Assembly: GCA_900315395.1 (NCBI GenBank)
Contig: OMZC01000092.1
Coordinates: forward strand, 1 to 45,665
DNA length: 45,665 nucleotides
DNA from: an uncultured Gammaproteobacteria bacterium
GTDB lineage: Bacteria; Pseudomonadota; Gammaproteobacteria; Enterobacterales; Succinivibrionaceae
Reading direction: 5' to 3'
Of this stretch, positions 10,644 through 17,847 are shown one piece after another; the stretch's first letter is position 1, and the number at the start of each line of letters is the position of its first letter. A program made the translations under genes and the position numbers. The notes beneath the pieces were generated by a model, which was not told the origin of the DNA, did no database searches, and saw only the letters and a list, made by a program, of their open reading frames with translations.

Positions 10644-12902
10644 ATGGAAGATCAGAAAAAGAATTCTCTTTTGGATGACGATCTGTCTTTAGAAGAGCTT
10701 GCCAAAAATTTTGACAATATTGATATCAATGATCTTGAAAAGATTCAGGATCTTGCCAAGCTCCAACAGCAGATGAACGATTTTCTGATCGACAGATTTG
10801 CAACAAATATTGAAGCTTTCAAAAAGTACATGCCAGATATTGGCAAGTTCTTTGAGCACTACAAGCCTAAAAGAACTATTGAGTTCTTCTGCATGCCAAA
10901 CGGCATTCCAAATCTTTATTTTCCTGATACCAATGAGTTTTTCTACAAAACTGCTGATCCTTTTAAATTATGTGAACAGCAGATTGTACAGATCTTAGAA
11001 AGATCAAAGATCCTACAGACACGTTATGGTCACGAATCTGATCCTTTCGGTCAGATACATTTTAAGTATTTAAATACTTTAGTTACTTTAGAAGAAGAAA
11101 TTGAGCGTGATAAAACACTCTCCCCTTTAAAGATTGGCTCAGTACCTAACTGTATGTTCTTTGGTATAGGTTTAGGTTATTCATTAGCTTATCTTTATGA
11201 AAGAGTGGAAGTAGCTAACCTTATCATTGTAGAGCCTGATCTTGATGTGTTCTTTGCCTCATTACATGCCTTTGATTGGCAGAACTTATTGAAGTTCTTA
11301 TTTGAGAACAAATATGCCATCAACATCATGTTAGGACAGACTCCATTCCAGTTTACTCAAGATCTGTCAACCTTCTATTCAAAGCATGGACGTTTCCTAT
11401 CATCCTCATGGTTAGGTATTGTGCATTATGCCTCTCCTGAGATTAAAGCAATTGCTGATGTGGCAATGCGTGATCTTGATTCTGTACATGCAGCAATGGG
11501 CTTCTTTGATGACCACCTGTTTGGCGCAAGCCATGCCTGTCATGCGCTCTTAGACAAAAAGAACTTTGTTTTAAGACATCAGACTTTAGATAAGAAATAT
11601 TCAAAATTACCTGTATTTGTTATAGGTTCAGGTCCATCTCTTGATAATGACATTCCATTTATTAGAAAGAATCAGGATAAAGCGATTATTGTAGCTTGCG
11701 GTACTGCAATTGATACTCTGTACCATGCCGGTATTAAACCTGATTTTTATGCATGTACTGAAAGAACCCCTGAAATTAAAGAAGCTTTAAGTGTAATTCC
11801 TGATGAGCATTTCTTAGATGATGTGATTTTGCTAACAGGTGATGTAATTCATCCTTACACTACAGCTTTATTTAAACATACAGCAATCTTTGGAAAGATT
11901 GATGAGCCTTTCTATAAATATGCCCTAGCTACCATAAAAGAAACCAGAAAAGTAGGCTTCGTACAGTTAATGAATCCTCTTGTAGGTAACATGGGTGTAT
12001 CTGGAGCTCTATTCTTAGGCTTTAAAAACATTTATATGTTTGGCCTTGATAATGGTAAAAAGATTGACTCAAGCGCTATGCACTCGAAGTACACCACTTT
12101 GTATAACGAGCATGGTTGCTCTGATCAAGGTGGCAGTTACACTACTAAACAGAAGGGTAAAGGCAACTTTGGTGGACTTGTAGAAACAGGTTACTTCTTT
12201 GCCCTCTCAGCTCGTAACATGGGTTATGTAATTCGTAACCTTGAAGAAGAACGTGGCAAATTAAACTGCATTAACTGCTCTGATGGTCTGTATGTTGAAA
12301 ACACCACTCCTATGCATTCTTATGATCTTGATTTTAAGAAGTTCAAGAACATTGACAAGGAAGCTTTCCATAAATACATCAACGAAGTTAAGACTGCTCC
12401 TGTAAAGGTTACACGTAAAGAGCTTGAGGATATCTTTAATCCTGATGTATTCAACGAGATCGTAAATAAGGTTATTGAGAAGTTAAAGGCTCGTCCTAAT
12501 ACTCGTTTAGAGACCATCTTAATGATGCAGGATATTTCTGAGTTCTTATGTGGTATTGAGCAACAGCCTCAGCTTTACTTCTATGGTAGCTCACTGCAGG
12601 GATCTTTACAGACCTTCTTTATCGTAGCTTCACGTGTACTTTATAACAGCTCTGATGAAAAAGAATGTCTAGAGCAGTGTTACAAGATGTTCGAGGTTAT
12701 CTCTGACTTCTTAGAAGAAGCCAAAACTATCTTCAAGCACATGCCTGACTTTGTTATCGGTGAGCATCGCAAGTTCTATCCTGATGGCAAGGTTGGTGTT
12801 GATTACCCTCTTTGCAAGGCACCTATTCTGCCACCTGAAATTCATTTAAGAAAAGCTGAATATGACGATCCTCAAAAGATCTTTGAAAAGCGTTATGAGT
12901 AA
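10644..12902 (+). CDS. Motility-associated factor (Maf) glycosyltransferase, DUF115
   Basis: The 752-residue protein belongs to the 6-hydroxymethylpterin-pyrophosphokinase-like DUF115 family (MAF_flag10). The core block PVFVIGSGPSLDNDIPFIRKN...IIVACGTAIDTLYHAGIKPDFYACTERTPE lies near residues 327-380, and NPLVGNMGVSGALFLGFKNIYMFGLDNG is near 450. Maf proteins transfer nonulosonic acids (pseudaminic or legionaminic acid) to serine and threonine of flagellin before secretion. The first 60 residues are acidic and helical. Position right after fliS and a FliT-like gene supports a flagellin substrate. The sugar biosynthesis genes are not in the window. The gap before it (10576-10643) holds two small hairpins, and an AGGATGAG ribosome-binding site precedes the ATG. 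Confidence 0.88.
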   Translation: MEDQKKNSLLDDDLSLEELAKNFDNIDINDLEKIQDLAKLQQQMNDFLIDRFATNIEAFKKYMPDIGKFFEHYKPKRTIEFFCMPNGIPNLYFPDTNEFFYKTADPFKLCEQQIVQILERSKILQTRYGHESDPFGQIHFKYLNTLVTLEEEIERDKTLSPLKIGSVPNCMFFGIGLGYSLAYLYERVEVANLIIVEPDLDVFFASLHAFDWQNLLKFLFENKYAINIMLGQTPFQFTQDLSTFYSKHGRFLSSSWLGIVHYASPEIKAIADVAMRDLDSVHAAMGFFDDHLFGASHACHALLDKKNFVLRHQTLDKKYSKLPVFVIGSGPSLDNDIPFIRKNQDKAIIVACGTAIDTLYHAGIKPDFYACTERTPEIKEALSVIPDEHFLDDVILLTGDVIHPYTTALFKHTAIFGKIDEPFYKYALATIKETRKVGFVQLMNPLVGNMGVSGALFLGFKNIYMFGLDNGKKIDSSAMHSKYTTLYNEHGCSDQGGSYTTKQKGKGNFGGLVETGYFFALSARNMGYVIRNLEEERGKLNCINCSDGLYVENTTPMHSYDLDFKKFKNIDKEAFHKYINEVKTAPVKVTRKELEDIFNPDVFNEIVNKVIEKLKARPNTRLETILMMQDISEFLCGIEQQPQLYFYGSSLQGSLQTFFIVASRVLYNSSDEKECLEQCYKMFEVISDFLEEAKTIFKHMPDFVIGEHRKFYPDGKVGVDYPLCKAPILPPEIHLRKAEYDDPQKIFEKRYE

Positions 12903-12937
12903 ACAGCATTATGAATAGTTAAAGCTGTTCACTGCTA

Positions 12938-12969
12938 AAAAAGAGCTGGCACATGTGCTGGCTCTTTTC
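12938..12969. terminator. Rho-independent terminator after maf
   Basis: Hairpin GAGCTGGC / GCTGGCTC (two G-U pairs) with loop ACATGT, flanked by an A-run on the left and TTTT on the right. It closes the fliS-maf unit 40 bp after the stop codon. Confidence 0.75.
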
Positions 12970-13128
12970 GTAAGCCAAAGCCCACCTGCTAAGACTGCAC
13001 CATCATTTCTCAATTTTGCCCCATTAAGTTCATTTTAAAGTCAATTTGCCACTTACAGGAGCAATTGAAAAAGTAGCTTTAATTCATCTCTATACTATTT
13101 GAAGTTTCAGAATTTATAAGAGGTTGTT

Positions 13129-13476
13129 ATGGCTTGTTTTACAGCTTGTGTTGCAGAGGCAATTGTAGCTTATGGCGTCAAGAAAGTAGTTGCTAGCAGT
13201 AAAAATACAAAGGTAAATAGTTTTGCACCTAAATTACAGAAACTGATTAACCTACTGCTGTCAGGCTCATTCTTACTGCTAATTGAACATGTATGGCATG
13301 GTGAGATTGTGCCTTTCTATCCATTCTTTACAGCAGCAAATGATCCTGAGAGTACCAAAGTGATGTTGCATGAGATCTTAACTGTTGGTGTATCTATGGA
13401 TTTAGCTGTAACTGCCGTATGGTTTGTAGCATATATTCTAGTACCTAAATTTACACACAAAGAGGTACTAGCCTAA
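13129..13476 (+). CDS. Small membrane protein, unknown function
   Basis: 115 residues beginning MACFTACVAEAIVAYGVKKV. Two or three hydrophobic segments are visible (about 5-22, 43-58 LINLLLSGSFLLLIEHVWHG, 85-108 TVGVSMDLAVTAVWFVAYIL). The HVWHGEIVPFYPFFTAA segment with charged/aromatic residues between helices looks conserved in type, as small anaerobe membrane proteins of similar start are familiar, but no function is known to me. A ribosome-binding site AAGAGG and a -10 TATACT (13091-13096) precede it. It overlaps the next gene by TAATG, so the two are translationally coupled and probably form one complex. Confidence 0.65.
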   Translation: MACFTACVAEAIVAYGVKKVVASSKNTKVNSFAPKLQKLINLLLSGSFLLLIEHVWHGEIVPFYPFFTAANDPESTKVMLHEILTVGVSMDLAVTAVWFVAYILVPKFTHKEVLA

Positions 13477-13736
13477 TGTGCCTTTTAATTACAGCCTTTG
13501 CTGCAATTGTGTGTTTTTACCTTCAAAAACAGTTTTACTTTGATTTAAAAAGAATTACTGTAATGTTCTCTTCAGCTACCATCATGTGGTTAGTTGATTG
13601 TGCTTTTGCAAAGTTCAATGGAGAGGATTTCTTTGATATAAGTTACGATGATACTTTATTAGGAATTACTGTAGTCTTTCTGGCTATTGTTTTAGATCTT
13701 ATCTTAAGACTACCAAAAATTGTTGCAAATTCTTAG
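13476..13736 (+). CDS. Small membrane protein coupled to the preceding gene
   Basis: 86 residues with three predicted transmembrane stretches: residues 1-17 (LLITAFAAIVCFYLQ), about 28-43 (ITVMFSSATIMWLVDCAF) and 60-80 (LLGITVVFLAIVLDLIL). The ATG overlaps the stop codon of the upstream gene (TAATG), which indicates coupled synthesis in equal amounts. No family is recognised. The next gene in the same direction is the Cys-rich peptide 410 bp away, behind its own leader and a terminator, so a shared role in export or self-protection for that peptide is only a possibility. Confidence 0.6.
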   Translation: MCLLITAFAAIVCFYLQKQFYFDLKRITVMFSSATIMWLVDCAFAKFNGEDFFDISYDDTLLGITVVFLAIVLDLILRLPKIVANS

Positions 13737-13977
13737 TTGTAAAAATATCCCACGACTCTAGACGTGAATAATCTAAAAACTTATTCACGAATAGAGTTTT
13801 CTCCTGTTCTCTTCTTTGCTAAAAGCAATCTGATTTCTTTAAAAATAGCTCGCCAGTTATCACTTTCTCTTATTTTAACCTTTCTATAATTTTTATTATG
13901 CACAACGCTTCAATACAAAAATAATACCATTGCAAAAAAAAACAATATACTAAAATTTAAAAAAAGAGTGGTGTGAG

Positions 13978-14017
13978 GAATTGTCGTTATCACATAAAGG
14001 ATTAACGGGAGCAATTC
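13978..14017 (+). promoter_or_regulatory. Stem-loop in the peptide leader RNA
   Basis: GAATTG (13978-13983) pairs with CAATTC (14012-14017). Inside it CGTTATC pairs with GATTAACG (one bulge), leaving an ACATAAAG loop. It precedes the terminator-like hairpin at 14061 and may be the sensing part of a leader RNA. Ligand or factor unknown. Confidence 0.4.
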
Positions 14018-14060
14018 ATTTAAATTGTACACAGTTGTTATCTAATTGCTACGTATAGTT

Positions 14061-14118
14061 AATTACAGTCTGACTGGTACGAACTCATTACGTTACTCGG
14101 ACTTAATTGTTTTTTTTT
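14061..14118 (+). terminator. Intrinsic terminator just upstream of the Cys-rich peptide gene
   Basis: AATTACAGTCTGA (14061-14073) pairs with TCGGACTTAATT (14097-14108; one bulge, one G-U), with an inner GTACG/CGTTAC stem, followed by nine T residues to 14118. The peptide ATG is 27 bp further on. It could simply end upstream transcription, or act as an attenuator if transcription starts near 13960. Confidence 0.7.
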
Positions 14119-14145
14119 ATTTCATGAAAGAGTGTGGTGTTTTTT

Positions 14146-14469
14146 ATGAATTCAGAATTACTAATACCAAATACAGACAACTTTAGTGCAATCTTTAATG
14201 ACGAAGGCTACGCTATGGTTACATGCATGGGATCTTGCAGAGGCTGTCAGTGTCGCGTAAATCCTTTTAACAGCGAAGATATCTTTGAAGAAGAGTTGTT
14301 GTATGCTCCAAACGAAAGCCAGTATTTGTCAATATTAGCTCCTGTAAACTCTAAACCAATGTTTAGCTCTGGCGGTTGTCCTTGCAACTGTACTTCTTGC
14401 AATTCATGCAGATGCGATTGCAGAGTTGGTAGAGATTTCTTTGAAGAGCTTGATGCTGTTTGGGCTTAA
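14146..14469 (+). CDS. Cys-rich RiPP-like precursor peptide with two core segments
   Basis: 107 residues from the ATG at 14146. The GTG codons at 14134 would add four residues but lie inside the GAAAGAGTGTGG stretch that includes the likely ribosome-binding site. It holds 11 cysteines in two clusters. Cluster one is C27, C31, C34, C36 (CMGSCRGCQCRV), followed by NPFNSEDIFEEEL. Cluster two is C78, C80, C82, C85, C88, C90, C92 (CPCNCTSCNSCRCDCRV), followed by GRDFFEEL. The shared pattern C-x-C-R-V then an acidic F-E-E-L tail looks like an internal duplication. The N-terminal 22 residues (MNSELLIPNTDNFSAIFNDE) could be a leader. Directly downstream is a radical SAM/SPASM enzyme of the peptide-modifying type. 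Modification to thioether crosslinks (ranthipeptide/sactipeptide-like) is inference; a plain metal-binding peptide is the alternative. Confidence 0.75.
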   Translation: MNSELLIPNTDNFSAIFNDEGYAMVTCMGSCRGCQCRVNPFNSEDIFEEELLYAPNESQYLSILAPVNSKPMFSSGGCPCNCTSCNSCRCDCRVGRDFFEELDAVWA

Positions 14470-14477
14470 TTTTTTTG

Positions 14478-14557
14478 AGTGCTGCAACTACGCAAATAGA
14501 CAAGTTGCTAACACATTAGCTTGACGACTTGCGTTGTATGATTTTAGTTGTAGCTCT
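14478..14557 (+). promoter_or_regulatory. Long stem-loop between peptide and maturase genes
   Basis: GCTGCAACTA (14481-14490) pairs with TAGTTGTAGC (14545-14554), continued by CGCAA with TTGCG (14491-14495 with 14529-14533) and inner CAAGT/ACTTG and GCTA/TAGC pairing. A short TTTT follows. It may stabilise the 3' end of the peptide mRNA or work with the terminator further on. Confidence 0.45.
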
Positions 14558-14603
14558 TTTCCAAATGCACCAGCTTACTAGCTAGTTCAGCTATAGATAA
14601 GAC

Positions 14604-14643
14604 AACTGATATGACGTTTTATTCGTTGTATCAGTTTTTTTTT
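14604..14643 (+). terminator. Intrinsic terminator between peptide gene and maturase gene
   Basis: AACTGATATGACG (14604-14616) and CGTTGTATCAGTT (14624-14636) form a stem of about 13 pairs (two G-U) around a 7-nt loop, followed by T to 14643. The maturase ATG is 15 bp later, so the maturase is probably made by read-through. This gives much more peptide than enzyme, as is common in RiPP clusters. Confidence 0.8.
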
Positions 14644-14657
14644 GCGAGATTTGATAA

Positions 14658-16052
14658 ATGAACAACAAACCTGTTTTTTCTAGATATACACATGAATATG
14701 CCAAAGAAGGAAAAGTTGCATTATTTAATAGCCTTCGCTTAAGACCTGTTTTCATATCACAACGTTTGTATGATCTTGTTAAGAGTTATATCAATGAAGG
14801 AAATAACAATTTATCTGATACAGATCTGTCATTGGTTAAGTCAACGGTTGAGGAATTAAAAAAGCAAAAAGTCTTAATTCCTGATGCAAAATATGACGAC
14901 ATGGTTATTGATAGATTCAAAGCTATAACAGGAAAACCAGCAATCCGTGTTGCCTATTTTATTATGACAGATAAATGCAATTTCAATTGCTCATACTGTT
15001 TTATGATGAAAGAGCAAGAAAAAGGTCATTTAAAGAAGCTTGGAAAAATGAAACCTGAAGTAGCAAAGTTAGCTTTAAATACCTTTGCCAAATGGTCTTA
15101 TACCAATGATGAAGACGATAGAATGATCATTTTCTATGGAGGAGAACCTTTATTAAACTTTCCTATCATAAAGCAGATCGTCTTAGACGCTGAGAAGTTA
15201 AAGGAAGAGAATAAATTAGCACAGGATACAAAATTTGCTATCGTTACTAATGGCTCACTGTTAACAGACGAAATTGCTGTCTTCATGAAAGAACATAAGA
15301 TAGGAATTGGCATATCAATTGATGGAGATTCTTTAGTTACAAACTCTTCTAGAGTTTTTGTAAACGGAGAGCCTACATTTGACAAAATTATGCAGGCTAT
15401 AGATACATGCAAAAGAAATGGTTGCGATGATTTTTCATTGTCAGTCACTATCTCAAAAAGTTGCTTAGAGAATTTTGACAACACTATTGATTTCTTAGTA
15501 AACAAAGTTGAAAGCAACAATATTGGTTACAACATATTGATGAATTTAGATGGAGATGAAAAGGAAAGCGAAGAATACGCCATTGCTGCATCAAAATTCA
15601 TTATTAAATCCTTTGAGATCTTCAGAAAAAAAGTCATTTACGAAGATAGAATAATGCGCAAAGTGAAATCTTTTGTAGATGGAAAGGTTCATCTGTTTGA
15701 CTGTGCTGCTTGTGGCGGAAATCAGCTTGTATTCGCACCTGATGGTTCTATTGGCATATGCCACGGATTTTTAGGCACAAAAAATTACTTTTCAGGTTCG
15801 ATTTTTGATCCTGACTTTTCTCCAGAGAAAAATCAGGATTTCCTCGAGTGGTCAAAAAGATCTCCTGTAAATATGGAAGAATGCCAGGATTGTCCTGCAC
15901 TTGGAATTTGTGGTGGAGGTTGTCCTTTTAATGCCTATCAACAAGAAAAGAATATTTGGGCTTTAGATAAGCGTTTCTGTATACACGCTAAAATGACTTT
16001 GGAATGGTTAATTTGGGATTTATATCAGAACAGCAAAAAAGAGAGCCAATAA
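14658..16052 (+). CDS. Radical SAM/SPASM peptide maturase
   Basis: The 464-residue enzyme has three parts. An N-terminal region of about 90 residues (VFSRYTHEYAKEGKVALFNSLRLRPVFISQRLYDLV) resembles the precursor-binding start of other peptide maturases. The radical SAM core (about 97-320) has the 4Fe-4S motif C107-x3-C111-x2-C114 (CNFNCSYC) and the SAM-binding FYGGEPLLNF. The C-terminal SPASM domain carries auxiliary cluster cysteines (CAACGG, DGSIGICHG, ECQDCPALGICGGGCPFN, FCIHAK). SPASM enzymes install crosslinks such as Cys-to-carbon thioethers on ribosomal peptides. The Cys-rich peptide encoded just upstream is the obvious substrate. The exact subfamily was not determined. Ribosome-binding site is weak (GCGAG). 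The gene ends convergent with der. Confidence 0.88.
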   Translation: MNNKPVFSRYTHEYAKEGKVALFNSLRLRPVFISQRLYDLVKSYINEGNNNLSDTDLSLVKSTVEELKKQKVLIPDAKYDDMVIDRFKAITGKPAIRVAYFIMTDKCNFNCSYCFMMKEQEKGHLKKLGKMKPEVAKLALNTFAKWSYTNDEDDRMIIFYGGEPLLNFPIIKQIVLDAEKLKEENKLAQDTKFAIVTNGSLLTDEIAVFMKEHKIGIGISIDGDSLVTNSSRVFVNGEPTFDKIMQAIDTCKRNGCDDFSLSVTISKSCLENFDNTIDFLVNKVESNNIGYNILMNLDGDEKESEEYAIAASKFIIKSFEIFRKKVIYEDRIMRKVKSFVDGKVHLFDCAACGGNQLVFAPDGSIGICHGFLGTKNYFSGSIFDPDFSPEKNQDFLEWSKRSPVNMEECQDCPALGICGGGCPFNAYQQEKNIWALDKRFCIHAKMTLEWLIWDLYQNSKKESQ

Positions 16053-16065
16053 TCGCACGAATTCA

Positions 16066-16088
16066 AAGGGGGCTTTCGCCCCCTCAGT
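16066..16088 (+). terminator. Terminator between the maturase gene and der
   Basis: GGGGGC, loop TTTC, GCCCCC, then AGTTTTATTT. It follows the maturase stop by 14 bp and reaches the end of der on the other strand, so it can serve both converging genes. Confidence 0.75.
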
Positions 16089-16089
16089 T

Positions 16090-17847
16090 TTATTTAGATT
16101 TCTTAGCTTGAGCTTTAGGATCAGCTTTCTTTCTTGGACGTTTAGCAAGAACTAAACCTGTACCTTCACGCTTTGCCTTAGCAATAGCTTTACGCTCTTC
16201 TTTATCCTGCTTAGCATCTGCTCTTGCCCACATTCTCTCGTTAGCAAGCTTACGCTTTTCAGCTCTCATCTGTGACTGAGTTTGACGCTTTTGAGCAGGT
16301 TTCTCATTAGCAAATGGGTTTTCACCTTCCTTAAAGTCGATGATCACAGGAGAACCCATGATGTTTAAAGCCTTACGATAGCAGTTGATGATGTAACGCT
16401 TATAAGCATCAGGTACCTTTGATACCTTGTTTCCATGAATAATGATTCTAGGAGGGTTATAGCCACCAGCATGAGCGAATTTAAGCTTAATTCTGCGACC
16501 ACCTGAAATTGGAGGCTCGTGCTCTTCAATAGCAGCTCTTAGAATTCTATTTAACATTGAAGCTGAATGACGGGTTGTAGCACCAATATAAGCTTCATCA
16601 ATAGAATCAAATAAGTTACCTACACCAGTTCCATGTAGAGCTGAGATAAAGTGAACTCTAGCAAAGTCCACGAAGCCTAAGCGTGAGTTTAACTCAAGCT
16701 TAATCTCGTCTTTTACAGAAACATCAAGTCCGTCCCACTTGTTTACAGCAATTACTAAAGAACGTCCTGATTCTAGAATAAAGCCTAATAATGACAGATC
16801 CTGATCGGTAACATGAGATCTTGCATCGATAACTAATAAAGCTACGTTACAATCTTCAATTGCCTTTAGAGTCTTAACAATAGAGAACTTCTCAATTGCC
16901 TCTGATACCTTACGACGCTTTCTCACACCAGCAGTATCAATAACGATATATTTCTTATCATCACGCTCTAGAGGAATATAAATAGAGTCACGGGTAGTAC
17001 CAGGATGGTCAGCTACAATCACACGCTCTTCACCTAACATACGGTTAGTTAAAGTTGACTTACCTACGTTTGGCTTACCTACAATTGCAATCTTAATTGG
17101 CAGATCAGCAAAAGGAGTATCCTTACTGCTATCACCATTTTGACCGTCAACATCCTCGCCTTTCATTCTGGCGCGGAATTTCTCTTTATGCTCGTGCCAG
17201 TCAAAACCGCCACCGACCATATCAACAGGAACGTTATCTAAGAACTGATAACCTTCTTCCCATTGAGCTAATTCTTCTTCATGAGCCTTTCTTTCGCGCT
17301 CTTCTAACTCTTCAGGGGTTAGATCGCAATCTAGAGGACCTTCTTCTCTTAATAAAGGAGCAATTACATCTTCTAGAACATTGGCAACACCACGACCATG
17401 AACTACAGCTGTAGGATAAACTTCACCTAAGCCTAAAGCGTAGAACTCAGCACCTGCTGTTTCTGGATCAAGACCATCAACCTTGTTAGCAATGATGGCG
17501 CACTTTTTACCAGAACGGCGAATGTAATCTGCAACCTTATAGTCACCAGGTAAAAGTCCTGCTCTTGCGTCTAACATGAACAGAACTAAATCGCACTCAT
17601 CAATAGCTAATAAAGCCTGATTGGTCATGCGAGAAGTAACTTCTTCAGGTTGGTTTGTGGCATCCTCTGCAATACCACCGGTATCAATAATCACGTACTC
17701 ACGGCCTTCATATAATGCACGGCCGTACTTTCTATCGCGGGTTAATCCCGGAAAATCTGCAACTAGAGCATCTCTAGTCTTAGTAAGTCTGTTGAAAAAT
17801 GTAGATTTACCAACATTAGGGCAACCTACTAAAGCAACTACTTTCAT
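16090..17847 (-). CDS. der: Ribosome assembly GTPase Der (EngA)
   Basis: Tandem-GTPase factor for 50S subunit maturation. G domain 1 (from residue 4) has [13 protein letters not shown] and NKVDG; G domain 2 (about 250-420) has [21 protein letters not shown] and NKWDG; a KH-like domain (about 430-510) follows. At 585 residues it is longer than E. coli Der (490). The extra length is an acidic linker between G domains (about 180-250, [25 protein letters not shown]) and a C-terminal tail of some 70 residues packed with Lys and Arg, likely to contact rRNA. It is the last gene of the rlmN-to-der block, with a hairpin of terminator type between it and bamB. Confidence 0.95.

Follow-up and report, generated by a model that had tools for sequence, protein, structure and literature searches.

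In SPASM maturases, a radical is made on the substrate with SAM and a cysteine sulphur is joined to a carbon. The FibroRumin family, which is described by one curated model for its maturases (TIGR04136) and one for its target peptides (TIGR04135), is catalogued yet apparently little studied. In the open literature searched, outside of which most subscription papers lie, we found no mention of FibroRumin, TIGR04136 or TIGR04135, and among the matches listed for ranthipeptides, rumen RiPPs, PapB and UvrA with RiPPs there was no paper on FibroRumin, judged by title and beginning of the abstract. The related enzyme PapB links Cys to Asp or Glu in Cys-x3-Asp/Glu and tolerates other Cys-Asp spacings with n = 0 to 6 (PMC9413430).

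Here, we analysed a stretch of 45,665 nucleotides (the window) from the genome of an uncultured gammaproteobacterium of the family Succinivibrionaceae, for which a RiPP cassette had been predicted from the sequence alone. We consider it highly probable that this cassette is a horizontally acquired, early-branching FibroRumin RiPP system with a fused two-core precursor, both cores of which would be cross-linked by its SPASM maturase.

The precursor and its maturase

The precursor is encoded on the forward strand at 14146..14469, starts with ATG (an in-frame GTG lies 5' of it at 14134) and comprises 107 aa with 11 Cys at residues 27, 31, 34, 36 and 78, 80, 82, 85, 88, 90, 92. The original prediction of a 107-residue, 11-Cys peptide ahead of a radical SAM/SPASM enzyme (14146-14469, then 14658-16052) was confirmed, as were its two differently spaced Cys clusters, followed by IFEEELL and FFEEL, respectively; bases 13978-14133 of the predicted span lie outside the precursor ORF. 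Chance does not account for the Cys-rich precursor ORF. Of the window's 54 ORFs that start with ATG and reach 60 aa, no other has 9% Cys or more, and none of 926 ORFs of at least 60 aa from 40 simulated windows (first-order Markov) combined a length of at least 100 aa with at least 10% Cys. TIGR04135 was the only family model matched by the precursor, with no SCIFF model among the matches. The match covers two stretches, the best of them at residues 58-103 (E 6.7e-9, 35.6 bits). As the whole precursor thereby stays below the curated cut-off of 45, we call it a FibroRumin-type variant rather than a member by the curated rule; as is expected of a TIGR04135 target, it is a Cys-rich peptide located directly 5' of a TIGR04136 enzyme. 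PADLOC had no model for the precursor.

The maturase (14658..16052, forward strand, 464 aa, TIGR04136) starts 188 bases past the precursor ORF. In it, CNFNCSYC (CX3CX2C) occupies residues 107-114, and all seven Cys of the SPASM pattern C-x13-G-x4-C / C-x2-C-x5-C-x3-C / C fall within residues 349-441, so that an enzyme with CNFNCSYC and a full SPASM domain, as predicted, was found with all canonical Cys in place. Against TIGR04136 (rSAM_FibroRumin) it scored 405.9 bits (405.5 in the genome search), only 6 bits above the curated cut-off of 400, while the second-best model, PapB (NF047865), gave 175.3 bits (E 1.8e-51). Nearest in sequence among solved structures are 8vpo (E 4.1e-32), matched nearly from end to end, and 5wgg (E 2e-31), which we take to be CteB, a SCIFF maturase. 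Two viperin models of PADLOC also matched the maturase; we read them as a shared fold and saw no defence system.

Separate peptides elsewhere, one chain in the window

For comparison, five other FibroRumin loci were read: plasmid p16187MP2 of Campylobacter sp. RM16187 (L004, from a plasmid search), contigs of Anaerostipes, Lachnospiraceae AB2028 and Mogibacterium (L005-L007, from a genome-contig scan) and genome G627 (L014, from a search of 391 genomes of AB2028's class). The plasmid search matched 116 records, and among the ten listed only the Campylobacter one stood at 40% identity and was annotated FibroRumin. The contig scan was based on two short patterns, with 3 of 229 candidate stretches confirmed. 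Of 41 phage records matching the maturase, the eight listed were distant radical SAM proteins (23-27% identity), and viral contigs held no confirmed relative when queried with the window maturase, maturase alignments, the AB2028 maturase and a B-peptide alignment. Given thin, overlapping genome samples and a pattern-dependent scan, the number of FibroRumin loci is a lower bound.

The window maturase is 40-43% identical to its five homologues. Four canonical members, one of them cut by a contig end, reached 707-813 bits against TIGR04136 and that of G627 484.6, so that by score the window maturase is more divergent than any of the other five. A maturase tree, as proposed with the original prediction, was calculated with four outgroup maturases, the long branches of which were flagged by the tree tool. 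It united the window enzyme and the five FibroRumin enzymes in one clade (support 100/99); within it, the window maturase split off first, with the remaining five joined at 92/89.

In all five other loci, separate peptides of about 50-60 residues, A then B, lie 5' of the maturase, with an A-to-B gap of -11 to 38 bases for the start codons that we chose. The AB2028 locus holds an expanded precursor set (L006:3321-4225) of one A-type and three B-type or B-type-like peptides for a single maturase. The A core reads C-x3-C-x2-C-x-C and is extended by three further x-C steps, to 7 Cys, in the canonical four, with no such extension in G627 or the window; the B cores of G627 and the window share a GGC start.

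In the window, an A-type half (precursor residues 1-53, 4 Cys, C-x3-C-x2-C-x-C) and a B-type half (residues 54-107, 7 Cys, C-x-C-x-C-x2-C-x2-C-x-C-x-C) can be told apart. With profiles built from the peptides of the other loci (5 A, 7 B), the window precursor being left out, the N half scored 18.3 bits for A and 6.1 bits for B, and the C half 20.9 bits for B and 8.0 bits for A. Full shuffles never attained the 18.3 bits (A, N half) or the 20.9 bits (B, C half), with 0/2000 in each case. The joint A and B score was reached by none of 2000 full and none of 2000 Cys-fixed shuffles of either half. When the Cys were held fixed, 3 of 2000 shuffles scored as high with A as the N half does, and 10 of 2000 as high with B as the C half does (5/2000 and 17/2000, respectively, for the entire peptide), so that the halves are assigned mainly by their Cys spacing. 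Neither leader-like stretch has the G that the other peptides show in their (M/L/I)-(L/F)-G motif. Given the profile and shuffle results, an A and a B peptide joined in one chain are the best reading of the precursor, and its two-half make-up is statistically shown as far as sequence comparison goes. Fusion of genes that are separate elsewhere is a classic hint of joint action; in combination with the A-then-B order that recurs in the other loci, it points to A and B peptides working as a pair.

Could the maturase instead belong to a separate family, a sister of FibroRumin, with a substrate of two domains that works as a single large peptide and resembles A and B only by similar Cys spacing? 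The score barely above the TIGR04136 cut-off, the early branching of the window enzyme outside the other five (92/89), the half scores at times reached by Cys-fixed shuffles and the missing UvrA-like gene (see below) would all fit such a case. Against it stands G627, whose maturase is intermediate in score and whose peptides combine the 4-Cys A spacing of the window with a B core of GGC-x-C-x-C-x2-C-x2-C-x-C, encoded in two separate ORFs. We therefore regard a sister family as unlikely, though the strongest of the alternatives, and keep to the fused FibroRumin precursor.

The Cys clusters might also bind metal in the manner of a metallothionein, next to a maturase with another substrate. CxC and CxxC spacing is typical of metal-binding peptides and is seen here, and the original prediction that neither a protease nor an exporter adjoins the cassette was borne out among the neighbours scanned (small ORFs, a Maf-type glycosyltransferase and der). 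Such peptides lie directly 5' of the maturase in six of six loci, window included, which speaks against an unrelated substrate and makes metal binding very improbable as an explanation.

Insertion site, neighbours and distribution

Between maf and der, about 3.2 kb of the window hold two small ORFs, the precursor and the maturase. In six of seven congener loci fetched, the two flanking genes are adjacent, the distance between their tblastn matches being 74-117 bases in five of them and about 620 bases in L044. In the remaining locus, L047, the stretch read had no der match. None of the seven contained a match for peptide, maturase or small ORFs. From this comparison of contigs, the insertion site of the cassette is shown to lie between maf and der. 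The Maf-type (motility accessory) glycosyltransferase (10644-12902) is 5' of the small ORFs, and matches to it occur in 18 of 19 genus genomes, source included, with up to ten per genome.

The small ORFs (13129..13736, forward strand, 115 and 86 aa) probably encode membrane proteins, judged by reading their sequences. The first is found in 19 of 56 family genomes, source genome included, and 7 of 14 other loci have the second next to it; within these 14 short loci there was no match to precursor or maturase. We had considered the pair as part of the cassette and rejected this on the basis of that distribution; the two genes probably form an independent pair. The Ruminococcus albus plasmid pRUMAL02 (L067) also has a homologue of the first small ORF, beside cooS.

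The gammaproteobacterial host had been called unusual, and the searches agree: the maturase was found in 1 of 56 family genomes (E up to 1e-60), 1 of 369 class genomes (E up to 1e-50) and 1 of 398 phylum genomes (E up to 1e-60), in each case the source genome itself. The suggested search for the peptide among relatives yielded no further homologue (1/60, again the source genome). In Clostridia, the maturase was detected in 2 of 391 class genomes (the AB2028 query genome and G627) and 1 of 397 family genomes (the query genome), and a further genome sample gave 1 of 177, the query genome only; these samples overlap. Der of the window is 56.6% identical to E. coli Der, and a one-chain PurL scores above its cut-offs; both are consistent with a gammaproteobacterial host. 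A BamB-like protein stays below its cut-offs (284.2 vs 423, 274 vs 285.2). GC content is 0.34 for the maturase, 0.37 for maf and 0.41 for der. Least likely of all is an assembly chimera that brought a foreign cassette into this draft genome of 125 contigs, for although no other sampled family genome has the cassette, it is flanked on one contig by host-type genes, maf on one side and der on the other, an order which congeners keep without the insert, and GC content shows no sharp break. Horizontal gain of the cassette is the simplest account. Some of the other FibroRumin loci look mobile: L005 has a relaxase-like ORF and L006 has VirD4-, ParA- and ParB-like ORFs, as read by eye from translations, and the Campylobacter plasmid carries a gene annotated as mobilization protein, the plasmid itself being typed as non-mobilizable.

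Proposed maturation and comparison with known systems

In the mechanism that we propose for the fused FibroRumin precursor, a single chain would supply both Cys-rich cores, and a leader-like stretch for each, in place of the separate peptides that other loci encode. As family and motifs indicate, the maturase, with its radical SAM and auxiliary clusters, would form thioether cross-links from core Cys to nearby residues, probably of the ranthipeptide type. Cys-x3-Asp/Glu is absent from the precursor, and its B half offers C-D, C-x2-D, C-x4-D and longer Cys-Asp spacings. Considering the spacings tolerated by PapB, Asp may serve as acceptor, or else Thr, Ser or Asn between the Cys, which is a guess. 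Leaders would be removed by a protease encoded elsewhere. Fusion would deliver both cores in a fixed 1:1 ratio, and for this reason we suggest that they act together.

A terminator-like hairpin of 13 pairs with a T run lies between the two genes (14604..14636, forward strand). The stretch 14470-14660, which contains it together with a long hairpin, gives a more stable fold than 197 of 200 shuffles (z -2.43), while 13965-14145, 5' of the precursor, folds no better than shuffles (z -0.35). Because of the intergenic hairpin, more precursor than enzyme might be made. Another terminator-like hairpin (16067..16084, forward strand) separates the maturase from the convergent der, and Rfam gave no match up to E 1 within 12900-16200.

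Directly 3' of the maturase, three canonical loci encode a UvrA-like (DrrC-type) ATPase of about 700 aa (L004:9388-11481, L005:8953-11097, L006:5660-7795). The grouping of these three is ours; L007 ends within the maturase. The Campylobacter copy stays below the cut-offs of UvrA models (TIGR00630, 312.3 bits), the copies of L005 and L006 are 52-53% identical to it, and a Staphylococcus record annotated DrrC stands at 26.7% to the UvrA-like protein. PADLOC models mad3, mad8 and HEC-01A for this protein were taken as shared folds, with no defence system seen. No UvrA-like gene adjoins the maturase in the window, where der comes next, or in G627, whose genome gave no UvrA-like match at E 1e-20. 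Both UvrA-like matches in the source genome belong to one open frame of 951 aa on contig C102, probably the housekeeping UvrA. As UvrA-like genes provide self-resistance in DNA intercalator clusters, they have served to mark such clusters (PMC10413001). This role raises the thought that canonical FibroRumin products may act on DNA. As a speculation with the odds clearly against it, FibroRumin products might be two-part A and B peptides acting on DNA, with the DrrC-type ATPase as self-protection in three canonical loci and the window as a natural fusion showing that the parts belong together. The UvrA-like neighbour of three other loci thus provides a hypothesis for the target of the product, and the fused precursor a single substrate for testing both core types at once.

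Among known systems, the SCIFF maturases (TIGR03974) are likewise SPASM ranthipeptide maturases with a sequence match to the window enzyme through 5wgg. The window enzyme reached 144.4 bits against their cut-off of 425, and the precursor has no SCIFF match. The original prediction had set the cassette apart from SCIFF, Clo7bot and CXXX-repeat systems, which holds for all three (144.4, 95.7 and 76.5 bits vs 425, 600 and 350). PapB also is a SPASM enzyme acting on a Cys-rich peptide. The window enzyme remains at 175.3 bits vs a cut-off of 340, and the precursor is without the Cys-x3-Asp/Glu that PapB links in its own substrate (PMC9413430). Closest is FibroRumin, e.g. on Campylobacter p16187MP2, with the same maturase family, Cys-rich targets directly 5' and A and B cores. 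A RiPP cassette with a SPASM maturase is supported by the TIGR04136 score and the Cys-rich peptide directly 5'. The description of this cassette as undescribed-looking has to be withdrawn, because the enzyme passes the curated FibroRumin maturase cut-off; the targets are catalogued (TIGR04135) and similar peptides occur in five loci. The differences lie in separate precursors in FibroRumin loci vs one fused precursor in the window, a 7-Cys A core in the canonical four vs 4 Cys in the window and G627, and a UvrA-like ATPase 3' of the enzyme in three canonical loci vs none in the window. The maturase family is already known; what is new here is the fused A and B precursor, the deepest branch of a small sample and the unusual host.
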